Shown: one piece after another, positions 24,922 to 60,330 of the stretch
Layout of the letters: each line of letters begins with the position of its first letter
Numbering within the stretch: position 1 is the first letter of the stretch
DNA from: Leeuwenhoekiella polynyae
GTDB lineage: Bacteria; Bacteroidota; Bacteroidia; Flavobacteriales; Flavobacteriaceae
Assembly (NCBI RefSeq): GCF_004104075.1
Contig: NZ_QOVK01000014.1
Location: 38,994 to 102,993 of the forward strand
Length of the DNA stretch: 64,000 bases
Reading direction: 5' to 3'
Notes under the pieces: generated by a model
The model's database searches: none
Told to the model about the DNA's origin: nothing
Seen by the model: the letters and a program-made list of their open reading frames with translations, nothing else
Translations under genes and position numbers: made by a program

Positions 24922-24985
24922 TTTAGTGCAGAAATTAGGATAAATATAGGCTTTTATACCATGCGCCAGCGATTACAGCGGCATC

Positions 24986-25011
24986 CTTTAGCGCCTTTTT
25001 TGGCGCTAAAG
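24986..25011. repeat. 10-bp perfect stem-loop, CTTTAGCGCC
   Basis: CTTTAGCGCC (24986-24995), loop TTTTTT, GGCGCTAAAG (25002-25011). It sits in the 147-base gap between two same-strand glycosyltransferase genes. There is no T-tract after the stem on either strand, so termination would be weak; a processing site or a repeat element are alternatives. Confidence 0.45.
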
Positions 25012-25068
25012 ATATAGTGGAAAGCGCGGTTTTTCTGAAGCGGGAGCATCAGAAACAGGTGCCCAAAA

Positions 25069-54520: not shown

Positions 54521-54567
54521 TACGGCAATTGCCTTATGGATTTGGGTTTTGATTTACAGGAGATTTG
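54521..54567 (+). promoter_or_regulatory. palindrome + promoter, copy A (lipoprotein gene)
   Basis: The 16-bp imperfect palindrome TACGGCAATTGCCTTA (54521-54536; 7 of 8 pairs) is followed, 46 bases from its first base, by the G of GAGATTTG (54560-54567), a match to TAnnTTTG except for the first T. The same palindrome and spacing occur at 55233 and 59543. The start codon of the lipoprotein gene follows 24 bases after the element. Confidence 0.65.
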
Positions 54568-54590
54568 TCTTGTAATTAAAAACCAAAACC

Positions 54591-55106
54591 ATGAAAACAT
54601 CTACAAAACTCATTTCAACTTTCGTTTTAAGCTTACTTCTTCTTTTTGCAGCTTGCTCCAAAGACGATGATGGCGGTGACAGTGTAACCGGCAATAGCGA
54701 ACTAAAGGCAAGCGTTGAGGGTAAAGCCTATACCTCAATGCCCGAAGCTACTCTGGCTGAAGAAAATTCGTCGGGGGATATAGAGGTCATCACCATCTCG
54801 GGTGGCTCAATTGACTCTGAAAATATTCAAATTACTATTATAGGTTTTGAAGGAGTAGGAACCTACGACCTTAATGCCAGTAATATCGCTACGTATACCT
54901 TCCTGAAAGATAAGTCTGACTTTATGAGTGCACAGGTTTTTTCTACTTCGACGGGTGCGGCTTCAAACGGCGAGATTAAAATAGCAGAATACACCAAAGG
55001 CGAAAGCGTAAAAGGCACCTTCAGTTTTACCGGATACCTTATCAGCGATACCAGTAAAACGGTACAGGTAAGTAATGGAGAGTTTAATGTTAAGATCAGA
55101 AAGTAA
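54591..55106 (+). CDS. small secreted lipoprotein of unknown function
   Basis: 171 residues. Lipoprotein signal LISTFVLSLLLLFAAC (Cys22), then an acidic linker SKDDDGGD and an all-beta-looking domain (LKASVEGKAYTSMPEATLAE, EVITISGG, NIQITIIGFEGVGTYDL, GTFSFTGYLISD). The general form, short beta domain after a lipoprotein anchor, recalls small DUF6252-like Bacteroidota lipoproteins, but I cannot assign the family with certainty. It carries promoter copy A of the shared palindrome and so probably belongs to the same regulon as the next gene and the response regulator. Confidence 0.72.
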   Translation: MKTSTKLISTFVLSLLLLFAACSKDDDGGDSVTGNSELKASVEGKAYTSMPEATLAEENSSGDIEVITISGGSIDSENIQITIIGFEGVGTYDLNASNIATYTFLKDKSDFMSAQVFSTSTGAASNGEIKIAEYTKGESVKGTFSFTGYLISDTSKTVQVSNGEFNVKIRK

Positions 55107-55232
55107 GTAGTTATCAAAAATCTCAAGTGTTGAGGTTTTTACACGAAGCCGGAAGCAGGAGCAATTCTGTTTTCGGCTTTATTGCTTGCGGTTATTTCTA
55201 TAACTCTAAAAACGCACTTACAGGTCAAAATA

Positions 55233-55279
55233 TACGGCAATTGCCCTATTGATTGATGCTTGATTTTTAGAGACTTTTG
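55233..55279 (+). promoter_or_regulatory. palindrome + promoter, copy B (secreted-protein gene)
   Basis: TACGGCAATTGCCCTA (55233-55248; one mismatched pair) with GACTTTTG (55272-55279) ending exactly 46 bases after its first base, the same distance as in copy A. The ATG follows 31 bases later. Confidence 0.7.
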
Positions 55280-55309
55280 GGAGGTAAAAACTTTTAAACC
55301 TTAACAATT

Positions 55310-56380
55310 ATGAAGACAAATTATTTTTATGCGCTGTTGCTGTTGCTACTTTCTTTTGGAGTTTCAGCTGAGGCACAAACACTGAGTGAGGTCAATGCAA
55401 AATTGGATCACTGGGGGCAAAAACCCAAAGGTAAGATGCCTATGAAGGCGTATATCTCAGACTTTCAGGTGCTGGTAGAAGTTTACCGCGAAGATGTAGA
55501 TTACAAAAAGGAACGCGAGTTTAGAGGCATAGGTCGGGGCGAAGCAACAGCACAGGCAGCATTAGGGCTTAAAGGGGTTGATACAGACTTATTACAGGCT
55601 GAAGTAGATAAGCTGTATGCAGAATTTGTAGCTGACTTAAAGGCTAAAGGGTATACGCTTATTGATGTGGAAACCGCAGCAAAGACAGACTACTATAAAA
55701 ATGCGGAGCGTATGAACGGTCCTAATATTCGGGAAAGTGCCAATCCCGGTTATCTGGAAATCTTACCTACCGGAGCCAGTTTTATGGTTAGTAAACGCGA
55801 GGCTGAAGGAAAGGCAAACAACAAAAAAGGATTTATGAATAATTTGAAAATGATAGGTAACGCAGTTGCAGGTCCCAATCAGTTATCAAAAGACCTTGAT
55901 GACGCTCTGGTTATTGAAGTGAAACTTGCGCTTAACTTTAGCGAAGCGGGCTCCAGTTGGTTTAAAAGTTTGTCAGGTGCCAATGCATCTGTAAAGACAA
56001 ACCTTATGATGGGTACGCATACGGTGCAAGCTCCCAAAACCAAAGGACTACGGATGAAAGGACAGGAAGAGGTTTATACAATGCCCACTTCAATTGAATT
56101 TTACCAGGGAGCCGGGTTGAAAAAAGTTCAATCAAAAGGGTATTTAAAGAAGCCTATCTATATTTCCGGAGTGATTGATGATACCAAAGCAAGTGCTTTT
56201 GATAAAGGAAAATCAATAACCTATACCAATATTGGGGATTTGTATGTGGTGAAAAATACCTACAGCACCATAAGTACCAATGCAAAATTTGCAGAAACCG
56301 ATGGAGCAAAAATGGCCGATGCGCTTTATAAAGCCGGGAGTTCTTTTATAGATGAAGAAATGAAAGAGTTTTTTGACTAA
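55310..56380 (+). CDS. secreted protein of unknown function (palindrome regulon)
   Basis: 356 residues with a signal peptide (YALLLLLLSFGVSAEAQ). The mature protein is soluble and basic to neutral, with segments such as ISDFQVLVEVYREDVDYKKER, GRGEATAQAALGLKGVD, GPNIRESANPGYLEILPTGASFMV and VIDDTKASAFDKGKSITYTNIGDLYVVKN. I recognise no named domain or catalytic motif. It has no lipobox, so it is periplasmic or released. The promoter carries palindrome copy B. It is followed by a GC-rich stem-loop without a T-tract and then by the small membrane protein and the histidine kinase on the same strand. Confidence 0.72.
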   Translation: MKTNYFYALLLLLLSFGVSAEAQTLSEVNAKLDHWGQKPKGKMPMKAYISDFQVLVEVYREDVDYKKEREFRGIGRGEATAQAALGLKGVDTDLLQAEVDKLYAEFVADLKAKGYTLIDVETAAKTDYYKNAERMNGPNIRESANPGYLEILPTGASFMVSKREAEGKANNKKGFMNNLKMIGNAVAGPNQLSKDLDDALVIEVKLALNFSEAGSSWFKSLSGANASVKTNLMMGTHTVQAPKTKGLRMKGQEEVYTMPTSIEFYQGAGLKKVQSKGYLKKPIYISGVIDDTKASAFDKGKSITYTNIGDLYVVKNTYSTISTNAKFAETDGAKMADALYKAGSSFIDEEMKEFFD

Positions 56381-56409
56381 AAACAATTAACCATTCTAAA
56401 TATTTTTTT

Positions 56410-56441
56410 GCCAAAAGCTGCTTATATAGGCAGCTTTTGGC
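56410..56441. repeat. 12-bp perfect stem-loop after the secreted-protein gene
   Basis: GCCAAAAGCTGC (56410-56421), loop TTATATAG, GCAGCTTTTGGC (56430-56441). A T-run precedes rather than follows it on the plus strand, so it is not a standard terminator for the gene before it. It may stabilise the 3' end or pause transcription. Confidence 0.5.
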
Positions 56442-56603
56442 TCATAGTTTAATAAGGGTAGAAGTAGACTTTGAGCCATGATTCAAATGTTGAAGCGGAT
56501 GTTGCGGAAATTTTAATCCAACGTATTACTTCAAGAATTGAAAAACTGATTTATAGCACTTTAAAACTTATATCCTTGTTAGTTATGAATCAAAAGAACT
56601 AAA

Positions 56604-56858
56604 ATGATTTGGATTGAGACAGAATTTGCGGTTATTACAGGAAGTGTTGTTTTGGCGCTTGCGTTTGTCGTGCTGTATTTCCAGGTAGTCAAAATACAGG
56701 ATAGTAAAAAGGCAAGATCCAGATTAATTCGTTTTGAGCACAGCATTCAGTTTAATCAAAGTCAAATTATAAAGCGCAAAAACCACTTGGATCGCTATAA
56801 CTTTTTAGCATACAATCTTGATGAAGCTTTAATCATTCAGCCCGAAATAGTAGTTTAA
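56604..56858 (+). CDS. small single-pass membrane protein
   Basis: 84 residues: an acidic start MIWIETEFAVITGSVVLALA, a membrane helix about 8-28 (VITGSVVLALAFVVLYFQVVK), then a basic cytoplasmic tail with IRFEHSIQFNQSQIIKRKNHLDRYNFLAYN. No family recognised. It precedes the histidine kinase gene by 87 bases on the same strand, and could belong to the same transcript. The start is supported only by reading-frame extent. Confidence 0.5.
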   Translation: MIWIETEFAVITGSVVLALAFVVLYFQVVKIQDSKKARSRLIRFEHSIQFNQSQIIKRKNHLDRYNFLAYNLDEALIIQPEIVV

Positions 56859-56886
56859 GAAAATTTGTTTTTACACAAATTAAAGT

Positions 56887-56898
56887 GAATACGTATTC
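56887..56898. promoter_or_regulatory. 12-bp perfect palindrome upstream of the kinase gene
   Basis: GAATACGTATTC, 47 bases before the kinase ATG, with TATATTAG (56910-56917) between, a -7-like sequence. An operator near the promoter is possible. A 12-bp palindrome in AT-rich DNA can occur by chance. Confidence 0.35.
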
Positions 56899-56945
56899 TA
56901 GCATTTTTATATATTAGCCTGTAAATCAAAAGAATTCATATTTTT

Positions 56946-58724
56946 ATGAAACACTGCTACTGTTGGGCTTTTGCTTTTTTACTGAGTGTTTATGCGCTTT
57001 CTGCTCAGGAAATACAAAAGATAGATTCAATAAATGCTATTCTGGTTCAGAATAGTTCGCTCAAAACAGACTCCCTTCTTGTCATTTTTGAGAATAACCT
57101 AAAGGCAGCTCAAAAAATTGATTACAAAAAAGGAATAGGCGAAGCTTATAAAAATCTGGCAACCATTTATGGTTATGAAGCTAATGGTGAAAAAAGGGTA
57201 GCTTATAATCTGAAAGCCATTCGCATTTTTGAAGAGAATGACCTTAAGCCGCAGGCAGCAAACTTGTATGGTGAAATGGGCTATGGGATGAAGCGCGATA
57301 ATATGGAGAAAGCTCAGTATTATATGAATAAAGGCCTAAAAATGGCTGAAGAAGGAAATTACAAAGAGGTTTTAGACCGAACCTACAATAATTATGGGGT
57401 GCTTAAAGAAATGCAGGGACAGCTAGACAGTGCCCTGTATTTTTATAAAAAGGGACTTGCTATTGTAGAAGAGCGTAAGTATACCGAAGGCTTGCCGTAC
57501 AGCTATAGTAACCTGGCGGGCGCTTACGGACAAATGGGCAATTTTGACCTCGCACGCGACTATTTTTACAAAGCCAAAGTGATACGGGAAGAAATCAATG
57601 ACCGCAAAGGAATTGCCGAAAATTTCACACAGATTGGTGAAGTCTATCTTATAGAAGGTAAGCCCGCCGAAGCTGTTCCGTTTTTTGAAAAATCGCTGCT
57701 AATTGCGCGTAAGGAGGATTACCGTTTTCTAATGCAATACACGTATCAGCAATTATCTGAAACATTTAAGCAAATGCAGCAAACTGATTCTGCTTTGTAT
57801 TATTTTGAAAAATACGCCGTCTTTAAAGACAGTATCAATAGTTTAGAGACCACCAAGCAAATTGCAGCTCTGGAGGTTGAATTTGAAACCGAACAAAAGG
57901 AAAATGAGATATTAAGACAGCGGACACAATTAGCTGAGAAGGATCTTGAAGTGCGCCGCAAGAATGCGTATATCTTTGGAAGCCTAGGGCTGTCTATCAT
58001 TTTGGGGCTTTTAGGGTATTTAATTTATAGCCGTCAAAAGCAAAAAAACCGTCAGCTTCAGAAAGAAAAAGAATTACAGGTCGCTCTCGCTAAAATTGAA
58101 ACACAAAACCGACTTGAAGAACAGCGCCTGCGCATCTCAAGAGATCTTCATGACAACATTGGTTCACAGCTTACATTCATTATAATCAGTCTTGACAATC
58201 TTAATTATATGCTTAAAGATACTGGTCAGGAGGTGAAAGAACGTATTGCAGCGATCAGTGCATTCACCTCGGTTACTATAAATGAACTTCGCGATACGGT
58301 CTGGGCAATGAATAAGGAAGTGATAACGGTAAAAGACTTGCAAATGCGTATTTCTAATTTTATAGATCAAGCACAAAGTTCGAGGAGAGATGTTGATTTT
58401 CAGTTTAAGTATAAAGAAAAACATCTACAAAAATTAGAATTCTCTGCTGTAGGTGGCATTAATGTTTACCGCATCATTCAGGAAGCAGTAAATAATGCAT
58501 TAAAATATGCGGAAGCACAGACTATATGTGTGAAGATGGAAATTTCAGATTCCAAGTATAAAATAGTAATTCTTGATGATGGAAGAGGCTTTGATATAAA
58601 TGGGGGTAAATCAGGCCATGGGATTTCTAATATGCAAAAGCGGGCGAACGATATTGACGCAGATTTTAAGATATCAACATCGGTAAATAAGGGAACAACA
58701 ATTTCTATTCAATCCAAAGCTTGA
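56946..58724 (+). CDS. TPR-containing sensor histidine kinase (NarX/DesK-type, HisKA_3)
   Basis: 592 residues. Signal peptide (FAFLLSVYALSAQ), a periplasmic region with about six TPRs at 60-290 (for example GIGEAYKNLATIYGYEANGEK, LDRTYNNYGVLKEMQGQLDSALYFYKKGL, GLPYSYSNLAGAYGQMGNFDLARDYFYKA), a short coiled coil, a membrane helix at about 345-362, and a cytoplasmic kinase. The HisKA_3 box is RLRISRDLHDNIGSQLTFI with phospho-acceptor His402; the ATPase domain shows YRIIQEAVNNALKYA (N box), DDGRGFD (G1) and GHGISNMQKRA (G2). It pairs by type with the NarL-family response regulator 956 bases downstream, although a Nudix regulator gene lies between. The periplasmic TPRs suggest a protein or peptide signal. 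Confidence 0.92.
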   Translation: MKHCYCWAFAFLLSVYALSAQEIQKIDSINAILVQNSSLKTDSLLVIFENNLKAAQKIDYKKGIGEAYKNLATIYGYEANGEKRVAYNLKAIRIFEENDLKPQAANLYGEMGYGMKRDNMEKAQYYMNKGLKMAEEGNYKEVLDRTYNNYGVLKEMQGQLDSALYFYKKGLAIVEERKYTEGLPYSYSNLAGAYGQMGNFDLARDYFYKAKVIREEINDRKGIAENFTQIGEVYLIEGKPAEAVPFFEKSLLIARKEDYRFLMQYTYQQLSETFKQMQQTDSALYYFEKYAVFKDSINSLETTKQIAALEVEFETEQKENEILRQRTQLAEKDLEVRRKNAYIFGSLGLSIILGLLGYLIYSRQKQKNRQLQKEKELQVALAKIETQNRLEEQRLRISRDLHDNIGSQLTFIIISLDNLNYMLKDTGQEVKERIAAISAFTSVTINELRDTVWAMNKEVITVKDLQMRISNFIDQAQSSRRDVDFQFKYKEKHLQKLEFSAVGGINVYRIIQEAVNNALKYAEAQTICVKMEISDSKYKIVILDDGRGFDINGGKSGHGISNMQKRANDIDADFKISTSVNKGTTISIQSKA

Positions 58725-58776
58725 TAAAATTAGTAGGTCAAACTAAAAAAAGTTGAATTACTTTTTTTCATCAAAA

Positions 58777-58795
58777 AAACGTATTTTGTACGTTT
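58777..58795. promoter_or_regulatory. 19-bp inverted repeat, likely operator of the Nudix regulator gene
   Basis: AAACGTA (58777-58783), spacer TTTTG, TACGTTT (58789-58795), perfect. It lies 13 bases before the ATG at 58809, and its centre holds TATTTTG, which resembles a -7 element shortened by one base. An operator overlapping the promoter would suit autorepression by the protein encoded just downstream. Confidence 0.55.
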
Positions 58796-58808
58796 AAAAG
58801 TAATTTTT

Positions 58809-59534
58809 ATGACCCCAAGTTCTGCAAGTGTTGCACATGCTTCCAATAATGATTTTTATGCTGATAACGAGAAATTGTATGTCGCTACAGACTGTATTGT
58901 TTTTGGTTTTGATGAAGGAGATTTAAAACTATTGATTTTTAAAAGACGCGTAGAGCCAGACTCTGGTATCTGGTCACTGATAGGTAGTTTTGTACAACTT
59001 GATGAAGATGTAAATGATGCCGCACGTCGTGTTCTTAAAGAGATAACAGGTCTTGATGAAATCTTTTTAGAGCAATCTAAAACTTATGGCAAAGCAGATC
59101 GTGATCCGGGTTATCGCTGTCTTTCGGTGGCGCATTACGCCTTGATACGTATTGATGATTATGATAAAGAATTGGTAGAAAGTCATGGCGCTTATTGGTA
59201 CACTTTAAAAGACTTGCCTAAGTTGGCATTAGACCATGACCAGATGGTAGCAGATGCTCTAAATAAACTAAGACGTAAGGCGAGACAACAGCCTATAGGT
59301 TTTGAACTACTTCCTGAAAAATTTACTATACCGCAATTGCAGCAGCTTTATGAAGCGATCTATCAACGCGAGTTAGACCCTCGTAACTTTAGAAAAAAAG
59401 TATTGTCGCTTAAAGTGCTGGTAAAACTTGAAGAGAAAGATAAATCCGGATCTAAACGCGGAGCATTTTTGTACCGTTTTGACGCCGAAAAATATCAAGA
59501 GCTTTTAGAAAGTGGTTATAATTTTGAAATTTAA
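58809..59534 (+). CDS. NrtR-like Nudix-domain transcriptional regulator
   Basis: 241 residues. An N-terminal Nudix fold (about 25-155, starting KLYVATDCIVFGFDEGDLKLLIFKR) is followed by a winged-helix DNA-binding domain (about 165-241: ELLPEKFTIPQLQQLYEAIYQRELDPRNFRKKVL). In the Nudix box the catalytic REUxEE reads RVLKEI (residues about 74-79), so two of the three key glutamates are lost and hydrolysis is unlikely. This is the form of NrtR/AraR-like regulators, which sense a nucleotide sugar, sugar or ADP-ribose. It sits between the kinase and response-regulator genes. A perfect inverted repeat precedes the start. Confidence 0.88.
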   Translation: MTPSSASVAHASNNDFYADNEKLYVATDCIVFGFDEGDLKLLIFKRRVEPDSGIWSLIGSFVQLDEDVNDAARRVLKEITGLDEIFLEQSKTYGKADRDPGYRCLSVAHYALIRIDDYDKELVESHGAYWYTLKDLPKLALDHDQMVADALNKLRRKARQQPIGFELLPEKFTIPQLQQLYEAIYQRELDPRNFRKKVLSLKVLVKLEEKDKSGSKRGAFLYRFDAEKYQELLESGYNFEI

Positions 59535-59542
59535 CTCATAAA

Positions 59543-59589
59543 TAGGGCATTTGCCCTATTGCATTCCTAAACAGACTTTTTTAGTTTAG
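59543..59589 (+). promoter_or_regulatory. palindrome + promoter, copy C (response regulator)
   Basis: TAGGGCATTTGCCCTA (59543-59558; only the central A/T pair breaks symmetry) and TAGTTTAG (59582-59589), whose final G is again 46 bases after the palindrome's first base. The palindrome starts 8 bases after the Nudix regulator stop. A terminator-like hairpin lies between this promoter and the response regulator ATG at 59680. Confidence 0.65.
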
Positions 59590-59628
59590 TGCTTTCAATC
59601 TCAGTACTATTTATTGAATTTTTTAAAT

Positions 59629-59661
59629 CCGGGAAAGAGTTAGGGGACTTTCCCGGTTTTT
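59629..59661 (+). terminator. terminator hairpin in the response-regulator leader
   Basis: CCGGGAAAG (59629-59637), 10-base loop, CTTTCCCGG (59648-59656) and TTTTT (59657-59661). It can end the Nudix regulator transcript, but it also lies downstream of promoter copy C and 18 bases before the response regulator ATG. Confidence 0.82.
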
Positions 59662-59679: not shown

Positions 59680-60330
59680 ATGCCGGTAAAAATTGCAATT
59701 GTAGAAGACAAATTATTTCTAGCCCGTGCATTAGCAGAAAAGCTTTCCTTTTTTGATGAATTCAGCTTAAAATTTATTGCTGAAAATGGAGCGGACCTGT
59801 TAAATAAACTCGATTCAAATTCGAATATAGATTTAATCTTAATGGATATTGAGATGCCGATACTTGATGGTATTGAAGCTACAGCACTTGTAAAACAAAG
59901 ATTTCCGCAGATAAAAATTATAATGCTTACTGTGTTTGATAATGATGAGCATATCTTTAGTGCCATTAAAGCGGGTGCAGATGGCTATTTATTAAAAGAA
60001 ACGGCTCCAGATATTTTAGAAAAGGGTGTAAAAGAGACTTTATCTGGTGGTGCAGCGATGAATCCCTCTATCGCTATGCGAACACTTAAATTGCTTCGCA
60101 ATCCAAGTTCTGTAAATAGCTTAAATGAACGCGAAGAAATATCACTGTCTAGTCGTGAGACCGAAGTTTTAGAGCAGTTGAGTAAAGGCTTGAGTTATAC
60201 ACGTATTGCAGAAAATCTATTTTTAGCTCCCAGCACGGTGCGTAAGCACATAGAAAATATATATAAAAAACTACAGGTGCATAGTAAAATTGAAGCGATA
60301 GAAAAAGCCCGCCAAAATAATATTATATAA
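59680..60330 (+). CDS. NarL/LuxR-family response regulator
   Basis: 216 residues. The receiver domain (1-120) has IVEDKLFLARAL (acidic pocket), phospho-acceptor Asp56 in LILMDIEMPILDG, and the Lys in LLKETAPD. The C-terminal LuxR-type helix-turn-helix is SLSSRETEVLEQLSKGLSYTRIAENLFLAPSTVRKHIENIYKKL (about 146-190). It is the natural partner of the TPR kinase encoded 956 bases upstream. It is probably a dimeric activator, and palindrome copy C in front of its own gene suggests autoregulation. The terminator in its leader is unusual. Confidence 0.95.
   Translation: MPVKIAIVEDKLFLARALAEKLSFFDEFSLKFIAENGADLLNKLDSNSNIDLILMDIEMPILDGIEATALVKQRFPQIKIIMLTVFDNDEHIFSAIKAGADGYLLKETAPDILEKGVKETLSGGAAMNPSIAMRTLKLLRNPSSVNSLNEREEISLSSRETEVLEQLSKGLSYTRIAENLFLAPSTVRKHIENIYKKLQVHSKIEAIEKARQNNII

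Follow-up and report, generated by a model that had tools for sequence, protein, structure and literature searches.

A palindrome at a fixed distance from -7 boxes as the predicted operator of a NarL/FixJ-type response regulator in Leeuwenhoekiella polynyae and other Flavobacteriaceae

Why does one 16-bp palindrome stand ahead of three genes in the same 5-kb stretch of a flavobacterial genome, each time at the same distance from a promoter-like element, and which protein reads it? The stretch belongs to a 64,000-nucleotide segment of Leeuwenhoekiella polynyae DNA (assembly GCF_004104075.1, contig NZ_QOVK01000014.1, positions 38,994 to 102,993 of the forward strand), which was analysed as a whole and is called the window here; coordinates are positions within it. 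An earlier reading made from the letters alone (the sequence-only reading) had proposed that an activator binds there and controls a small regulon, its own gene included. Our analysis leads to a related proposal: the three palindromes are probably sites for a dimer of the NarL/FixJ-type response regulator (RR) encoded at 59680..60330 (+ strand), which is predicted to activate promoters beside their -33 element. We give this reading a probability of about 0.85 on comparative grounds.

The three palindromes are present where the sequence-only reading placed them: TACGGCAATTGCCTTA at site 1 (54521..54536), TACGGCAATTGCCCTA at site 2 (55233..55248) and TAGGGCATTTGCCCTA at site 3 (59543..59558), all on the + strand and all predicted RR operators, the first upstream of a gene for a DUF6252 lipoprotein. 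They have a 7-2-7 layout, TAGGGCA-NN-TGCCCTA, with two 7-base inverted half-sites around a 2-base gap. On the same strand follow the -7-like elements GAGATTTG (54560..54567), GACTTTTG (55272..55279) and TAGTTTAG (59582..59589), the last of which is imperfect and was not scored as a -7 box in the spacer counts given below. From the first base of the palindrome to the last base of the element the distance is exactly 46 bases at all three sites, as had been claimed, which corresponds to a 23-base spacer between the two. Chance is also an improbable source of the palindromes themselves: with up to 3 mismatches allowed, the window holds 3 matches to the consensus, whereas 100 shuffles average 0.28 and never reach 3. 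A matrix trained on 45 sites, all from other genera, ranked sites 2, 1 and 3 first in the window (scores 46.3, 37.8 and 30.8), followed by the same palindromes read backwards (13.1, 12.1 and 7.5) and then by the best unrelated place at 6.8; the best score among 20 shuffled windows was 8.6.

Beyond the window, the consensus at up to 2 mismatches is found at 4 places in the 4.79-Mb genome, namely the three sites and one place (L011) inside a guaB-like coding sequence, leaving the three sites as the only non-coding matches at this level. Allowing up to 3 mismatches raises the number of places to 15, versus 23 for the reversed control, so there is no enrichment of a scattered kind; 11 of the 15 carry exactly 3 mismatches and most lie within longer open frames, the exceptions being L014 and L023, while L019 overlaps short frames only. 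A relaxed search for the composite of palindrome and -7 box, allowing one mismatch, returned the three sites and others that are mostly in open reading frames. We consider L019 (C18:68222; L019:1501-1547) a weak candidate for a fourth site: it consists of TAGGGCAATTGCTGTT, a 23-base spacer and TAATTTAG, lies in apparently intergenic DNA about 215 bases ahead of the next likely gene start, and scores 17.8 with the matrix, below the three sites (at least 30.8) and above the best shuffled window (8.6). The other extra places score 7.9 (L014), 8.2 (L021) and, for a relaxed match, 3.7 (L190). We rejected the idea of a large genome-wide regulon in this organism, of which genome searches and matrix scoring gave no sign, with L019 as one weak extra candidate. 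The strong sites of the genome are three promoters within one 5-kb stretch. The sequence-only reading had named palindromes scattered without spacing constraint or inside genes as evidence that would count against it; these were looked for, and the outcome does not refute that reading.

The same geometry recurs across the Flavobacteriaceae. An RR match at E <=1e-30 was found in 20 of 60 genomes searched (own included), and the gene cassettes of 14 were taken; among 299 genomes of the family, 76 have an RR ortholog at E <=1e-60, of which 60 provided further cassettes, 6 were already in the set (own included) and 10 were left out, including the five whose RR identity is lowest (50-61%). Together with the window this makes 75 loci. 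In their non-coding DNA, palindromes were selected that have TA ends and no fewer than 7 symmetric pairs out of 8; this gave 73, and 63 of these contain a CA..TG core. Without exception the 63 carry TT at positions 44-45 from the palindrome start, and a TTG-like stretch abuts the palindrome on its 3' side (T in 60, T in 44 and G in 42 of the 63). Their logo reads AAA-TA[CG]GGCAATTGCC[CGT]TA-TTG, then about 20 weakly conserved bases and xAnnTTTG. The -7 box (A 53/63, TT 63/63, T 56/63, G 42/63) is of the TAnnTTTG type found in the -33/-7 promoters of Bacteroidota sigma-A, though its first T is present in only 21 of the 63.

Spacers were counted without a spacing condition, by direction relative to the RR, in 74 cassettes; a distant RR locus, L072, was excluded from these counts as well as from the tree and the target counts. 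Two types of palindrome can be told apart, GGCA..TGCC (GGCA-type) and TACG-N8-CGTA (TACG-type). Toward the RR, the 23-base spacer accounts for 97 of 133 GGCA-type palindromes (104 at 22-24) and 46 of 58 TACG-type palindromes (49 at 22-24), the next-best spacers reaching 5 and 2; facing away from the RR it accounts for 2/133 and 0/57. A held-out set behaves alike. It comprises 63 loci, that is, 80 minus 14 duplicates of the first set and three that were not classified (L238, L266, L280), and has the 23-base spacer toward the RR in 122/141 GGCA-type and 28/37 TACG-type palindromes (next-best 9 and 3), with 0/139 and 1/37 facing away. The spacing check in related genomes, proposed with the sequence-only reading, has therefore been carried through 74 cassettes and 63 further loci, and the fixed spacer holds in both. 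These counts and the abutting TTG-like stretch place the dyad at a fixed position beside -33/-35, as in a class II-like activator promoter, and lend strong comparative support to palindrome and -7 box being a real operator-promoter unit.

Some observations on this geometry stand apart. Four palindromes (G288:C1:1787319, G308:C1:1473769, G089:C5:186494, G297:C80:42398) are flanked on either side by a -7 box at this spacing, and possibly represent divergent promoters sharing one operator. The -7 boxes come in two flavours: output genes mostly have xAnnTTTG (CATCTTTG, GACTTTTG), and RR and small-protein promoters mostly have TAnnTTTA. In many Flavobacteriaceae genomes, tandem promoter-like units of the form TACGTAGAAGTGCGTATTTTTT...TAnnTTT follow each other every ~145-210 bases (for example G264:C6:368044-368525, G031:C5:61545-61883 and G107:C7:188386-188855), and in G031 and G107 they occur without the cassette RR at E 1e-60. 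As these units share the 23-base spacer, another regulator may use the same geometry. The TACG-type on its own was discarded for co-occurrence analysis: since there are also other promoters of the TACGTA type, a family-wide search with it is not specific enough, matching 134 of 299 genomes.

Which regulator, then, reads the palindrome? A search of the 299 family genomes gave 51 matches to the composite pattern, spread over 24 genomes, and 4 matches to the reversed control. All 24 are among the 76 genomes with the RR ortholog (Fisher p 2.3e-16, a value that overstates the case, as the genomes are related and kinship was left uncorrected), and for 45 of the 51 matches the RR is encoded on the same contig, no more than 13 kb away. 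Within the genus the agreement is complete (13/13): the composite is present in exactly those 10 genomes that have an RR ortholog at 69% identity or more, and absent from G008 and G012, where no RR match reaches E 1e-30, and from G009, which has only relatives at 34%. The RR itself has a receiver domain (PF00072, E 5.5e-21) and a GerE domain (PF00196, E 8.2e-18), which place it in the NarL/FixJ type with a LuxR helix-turn-helix (HTH); its relatives among solved structures are NarL, VraR and ChrA. Domain matches, alignments and co-occurrence make it the predicted binder.

A second regulator is encoded directly beside it, between the kinase and RR genes: a NUDIX protein with an NrtR/AraR-type winged helix (58809..59534, + strand; Pfam), whose gene ends 8 bases ahead of site 3. 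NrtR-type regulators use palindromic operators. That this protein binds the three palindromes is nevertheless scarcely credible, since motif and gene dissociate: G009 has an 82% ortholog and no motif, G007 has the motif and only a 58% relative, and in 66 of the 75 cassettes the protein has no match at E 1e-5, all of these but L072 keeping a composite site. The motif does not follow the presence of this regulator, and we rejected it as the binder. An alternative sigma factor, or an unlinked regulator co-inherited with the cassette, might also read the composite, given that palindrome and -7 box form a rigid unit of fixed length, like a sigma-factor promoter. We regard this as very unlikely: a 16-bp dyad with two-fold symmetry suits a dimer, the four palindromes with -7 boxes on both sides do not fit, the -7 part resembles an ordinary sigma-A box, and the sequence of the palindrome tracks residues of the RR recognition helix, as described below. 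The assignment to the RR is well supported by these comparisons, while binding and activation are predicted. The suggestion of a small regulon that includes its own regulator fares well here, as the motif tracks the RR and not its NrtR-like neighbour, and RR genes make up 29 of 152 predicted targets.

Of special interest is the relation between the RR and its type of operator. In the window the residues P184-S185 form the start of the recognition helix. The two residues that precede T[VI]RKH divide the RRs of the 75 loci into 39 PS, 35 xG and one PY. All 39 PS loci have GGCA-type composites; of the 35 xG loci, 33 have TACG-only types, and the 30 without any GGCA-type site have only TACG-N8-CGTA. 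The held-out loci follow the same division, with GGCA-type sites in 42 of 44 PS loci (L230 and L263, the loci without them, come from contigs that extend only a short way upstream of the RR) and TACG-only sites in 14 of 19 xG loci. The HTH of the RR aligns with that of NarL over 64 versus 64 residues, which would put R188 at the position of NarL K188, a residue that we take to contact bases. In RcsB, bases are contacted through K180 and S184 of helix 9 (PMC5829831). The counts for the covariation of residues and operator are strong, and the independent events behind them are few.

Inside the genus, sites 1 and 2 are kept in 9 of 9 relatives inspected (L059-L066, L068). The gene downstream of site 2 varies, being the 356-aa protein in some relatives and a PQQ/beta-propeller-like protein in others; site 2 stays while the gene behind it changes. 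A search of solved-structure sequences with the beta-propeller-like target gave no match up to E 0.1. For site 3, the strict core was matched in L059-L061 and is diverged in L062, L063 and L064.

How such a promoter would work can be sketched from its layout. The start-site map of Flavobacterium psychrophilum places the TAnnTTTG box at -12 to -5 (PMC9723704). On this scale we infer that the dyad would occupy -51 to -36, with its centre at -43.5 and the TTG at -35 to -33. The gap from -7 box to ATG has a median of 28 bases over the 152 predicted target sites. In the mechanism that we propose, the TPR histidine kinase of the cassette (56946-58724) would phosphorylate the RR upon an envelope signal, and the active RR dimer would dock at the dyad and recruit RNA polymerase to weak sigma-A-type promoters, turning on the DUF6252 lipoprotein and the 356-aa secreted protein as output genes. 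The poor -7 boxes, with their first T in 21 of 63 sites, fit such activator-dependent promoters. At site 3 the dimer may drive transcription of a short leader, with a terminator-like hairpin at its end, and some read-through into the RR gene would give an attenuated positive autoregulation. The palindrome itself was also considered as an RNA hairpin or terminator, and this was ruled out because it lies upstream of the promoter elements at a fixed distance.

The RR could instead bind the palindromes and repress. A site beside -33 could block polymerase, and several NarL-family regulators activate as well as repress; we nonetheless hold this to be improbable, because the dyad lies upstream of -33 and leaves the region from -33 to -7 free, the -7 boxes are as poor as expected of activator-dependent promoters, and a tight single spacing suits contact with polymerase better than steric blocking. 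A rival that concerns site 3 only is somewhat unlikely, and is the more serious of the two. Between site 3 and the RR gene there is a terminator-like hairpin, CCGGGAAAG and CTTTCCCGG around a 10-base loop (AGTTAGGGGA), with a T-run (59629..59661, + strand), a predicted attenuator or end of a short RNA. Site 3 might then serve a terminated RNA of about 65-70 nt (predicted from ~59594 to ~59661) and not the RR gene. By inspection, the hairpin with its T-run can be drawn in each of the 6 genus loci that were aligned (L059 and L063 have a single mismatch apiece), and the stretch between the -7 box and the hairpin (59594-59661) is partly conserved in the genus. Its fold is only mildly better than that of shuffled sequences (z -1.49; 12 of 200 shuffles as good), and Rfam matches on site 3 are far under threshold and were read as chance (DapZ at 26.3 bits, cut-off 56, E 0.0075; Termite-leu at 19.3, cut-off 51). 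Moreover, in many other loci the -7 box ends only ~17-32 bases ahead of the RR start, which leaves no room for such a hairpin.

Several observations weigh against activation by the RR at all three sites and against a clean switch of operator type. Site 3 has an imperfect -7 box and a hairpin with T-run ahead of the RR start; autoregulation there would need read-through, the other possibility being that the site makes a short RNA. In L065, L066 and L068 the RR follows the NrtR-like gene by ~25 bases and has no site of its own, many xG loci lack a site directly ahead of the RR, and the distant RR locus L072 has no motif at all. The residue and operator classes overlap: GGCA-type sites occur in 5 of 35 xG loci (all 5 with TACG...CGTA ends) and in 6 of 19 held-out xG loci (4 of which keep these ends), and TACG-type sites also occur in 6 of 39 PS and 8 of 44 held-out PS loci. 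The LG-type RRs of L262 and L267, which have GGCA-type sites without TACG ends, are real exceptions, and among the held-out loci neither type of site occurs in 2 of the 44 with PS and 1 of the 19 with xG. The best receiver-domain tree requires no fewer than 3 changes of class, only one of them on well-supported branches; with at most 3 independent pairs, a sign test of covariation is not possible. Activation by the RR dimer remains our preferred reading, and around it we propose a wider picture more tentatively, at a little under even odds. In this picture the RR, through PS or xG, would switch its operator between GGCA..TGCC and TACG-N8-CGTA without any change of length or spacing, within a family-wide, self-contained module that carries its own regulon; single dyads could fire two divergent promoters, and in Leeuwenhoekiella the promoter of the RR itself would at first yield an attenuated leader or small RNA.

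The cassette in the window runs in the order GSCFA-family gene, site 1, DUF6252 lipoprotein, site 2, 356-aa protein, 84-aa protein, TPR/HisKA_3 kinase, NUDIX-NrtR/AraR-type regulator, site 3, RR and DUF4230 protein. The following features are on the + strand. Predicted target 1 is the gene for the DUF6252 lipoprotein (54591..55106; Pfam PF19765, E 1.2e-10), and predicted target 2 encodes the 356-aa protein, which has a signal-peptide-like start and no Pfam family (55310..56380). The 84-aa protein (56604..56858) has an apparent N-terminal transmembrane segment; its homologs are targets of the motif elsewhere, and no site was found ahead of its gene in the window (best local matrix score, -18.2). 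The predicted partner kinase (56946..58724) contains TPR, HisKA_3 and HATPase_c domains by Pfam and has a match in 73 of 75 loci. Elsewhere in the window (24952-25035) there is a Flavo-1 RNA match above the gathering score.

Predicted targets were counted at 152 sites chosen for a -7 box at 23-base spacing and a following open reading frame. The commonest are DUF6252 lipoproteins (53), followed by beta-propeller-like proteins (33), RRs (29, as above), a small protein that precedes the kinase (17), 356-aa proteins (7) and rarer ones. This list suggests that the regulon has an envelope function. Five of the 6 composite matches outside the 13-kb range on the RR contig were inspected, and they stand ahead of a 446-aa lipoprotein gene, DUF6252-type and 356-aa-type genes on another contig, and two peptidase-like genes. 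The last two, in two genera (L078, L087), are on contigs other than that of the RR and encode secreted-type proteins, labelled papain-type-peptidase-like by motif inspection. In five genomes of the genus (G002, G004, G005, G010, G011; L298-L302) the composite precedes the gene for a 248-aa secreted-type protein outside the cassette, which is MORN-like by inspection, although Pfam gave no family; the genome of the window has no match to it at E 0.001. Two more sites in G007 precede a BNR-repeat protein with a type IX sorting tail and a 456-aa protein without a family, and one further site in G004 has no close target.

To our knowledge, few response-regulator operators are known in Flavobacteriia. 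The present analysis offers a precise operator-plus-promoter rule together with a candidate regulator, by which envelope-type targets (DUF6252 lipoprotein, beta-propeller-like, MORN-repeat by inspection, small membrane protein) come together as a single candidate regulon. The analysis further suggests that activation of the NarL kind, from a site beside -33/-35, works with the divergent Bacteroidota promoter, and provides a natural series for the study of joint change in HTH residues and operators. Should the two-residue operator switch hold, the protein sequence of such an RR, anywhere in the family, would be enough to read off its regulon. A description of this operator was not found in the open-licence literature searched for FimR/FimS, flavobacterial start sites, NarL 7-2-7 sites and the motif letters. 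The F. psychrophilum promoter map has the same TAnnTTTG -7 box as here, and its main text mentions no palindrome and no LuxR or response-regulator site (PMC9723704).

Compared with known systems, the cassette encodes a member of the NrtR/AraR NUDIX-type repressors, but the presence of that gene does not follow the motif. The sensor kinase and LuxR-type RR recall FimS/FimR of Porphyromonas gingivalis, also of the Bacteroidota, where FimR binds a promoter region directly and activates the surface-structure gene mfa1, and for which the main text names no palindrome, inverted repeat or consensus (PMC1974823). The target genes differ, and the kinase of the window scores 77.6 bits against the FimS equivalog (cut-off 600), which places it outside that family. 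FimS itself is a TPR-type kinase. The NarL heptamer is TACYYMT, unlike the half-site TA[CG]GGCA here, as judged by inspection. Further differences from E. coli NarL are the Bacteroidota -33/-7 type of promoter and a sensor that is a TPR kinase and not NarX or NarQ, and the RR reaches 116.3 bits against the NCBIfam NarL model (cut-off 250), short of the NarL equivalog. The likenesses concern architecture: in both cases an RR with receiver and GerE domains meets two 7-base inverted elements with a 2-base gap, at a site that adjoins the -35 region. At the ogt promoter of E. coli, NarL activates from 7-2-7 sites at -44.5 and -77.5, the former (NarL II) being close to the predicted centre of -43.5 here; at yeaR-yoaG it does so from one such site, placed immediately upstream of -35 (PMC7419079). 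The system described here is neither NarL nor FimS/FimR by family score, yet it likely works as NarL does at yeaR and ogt.

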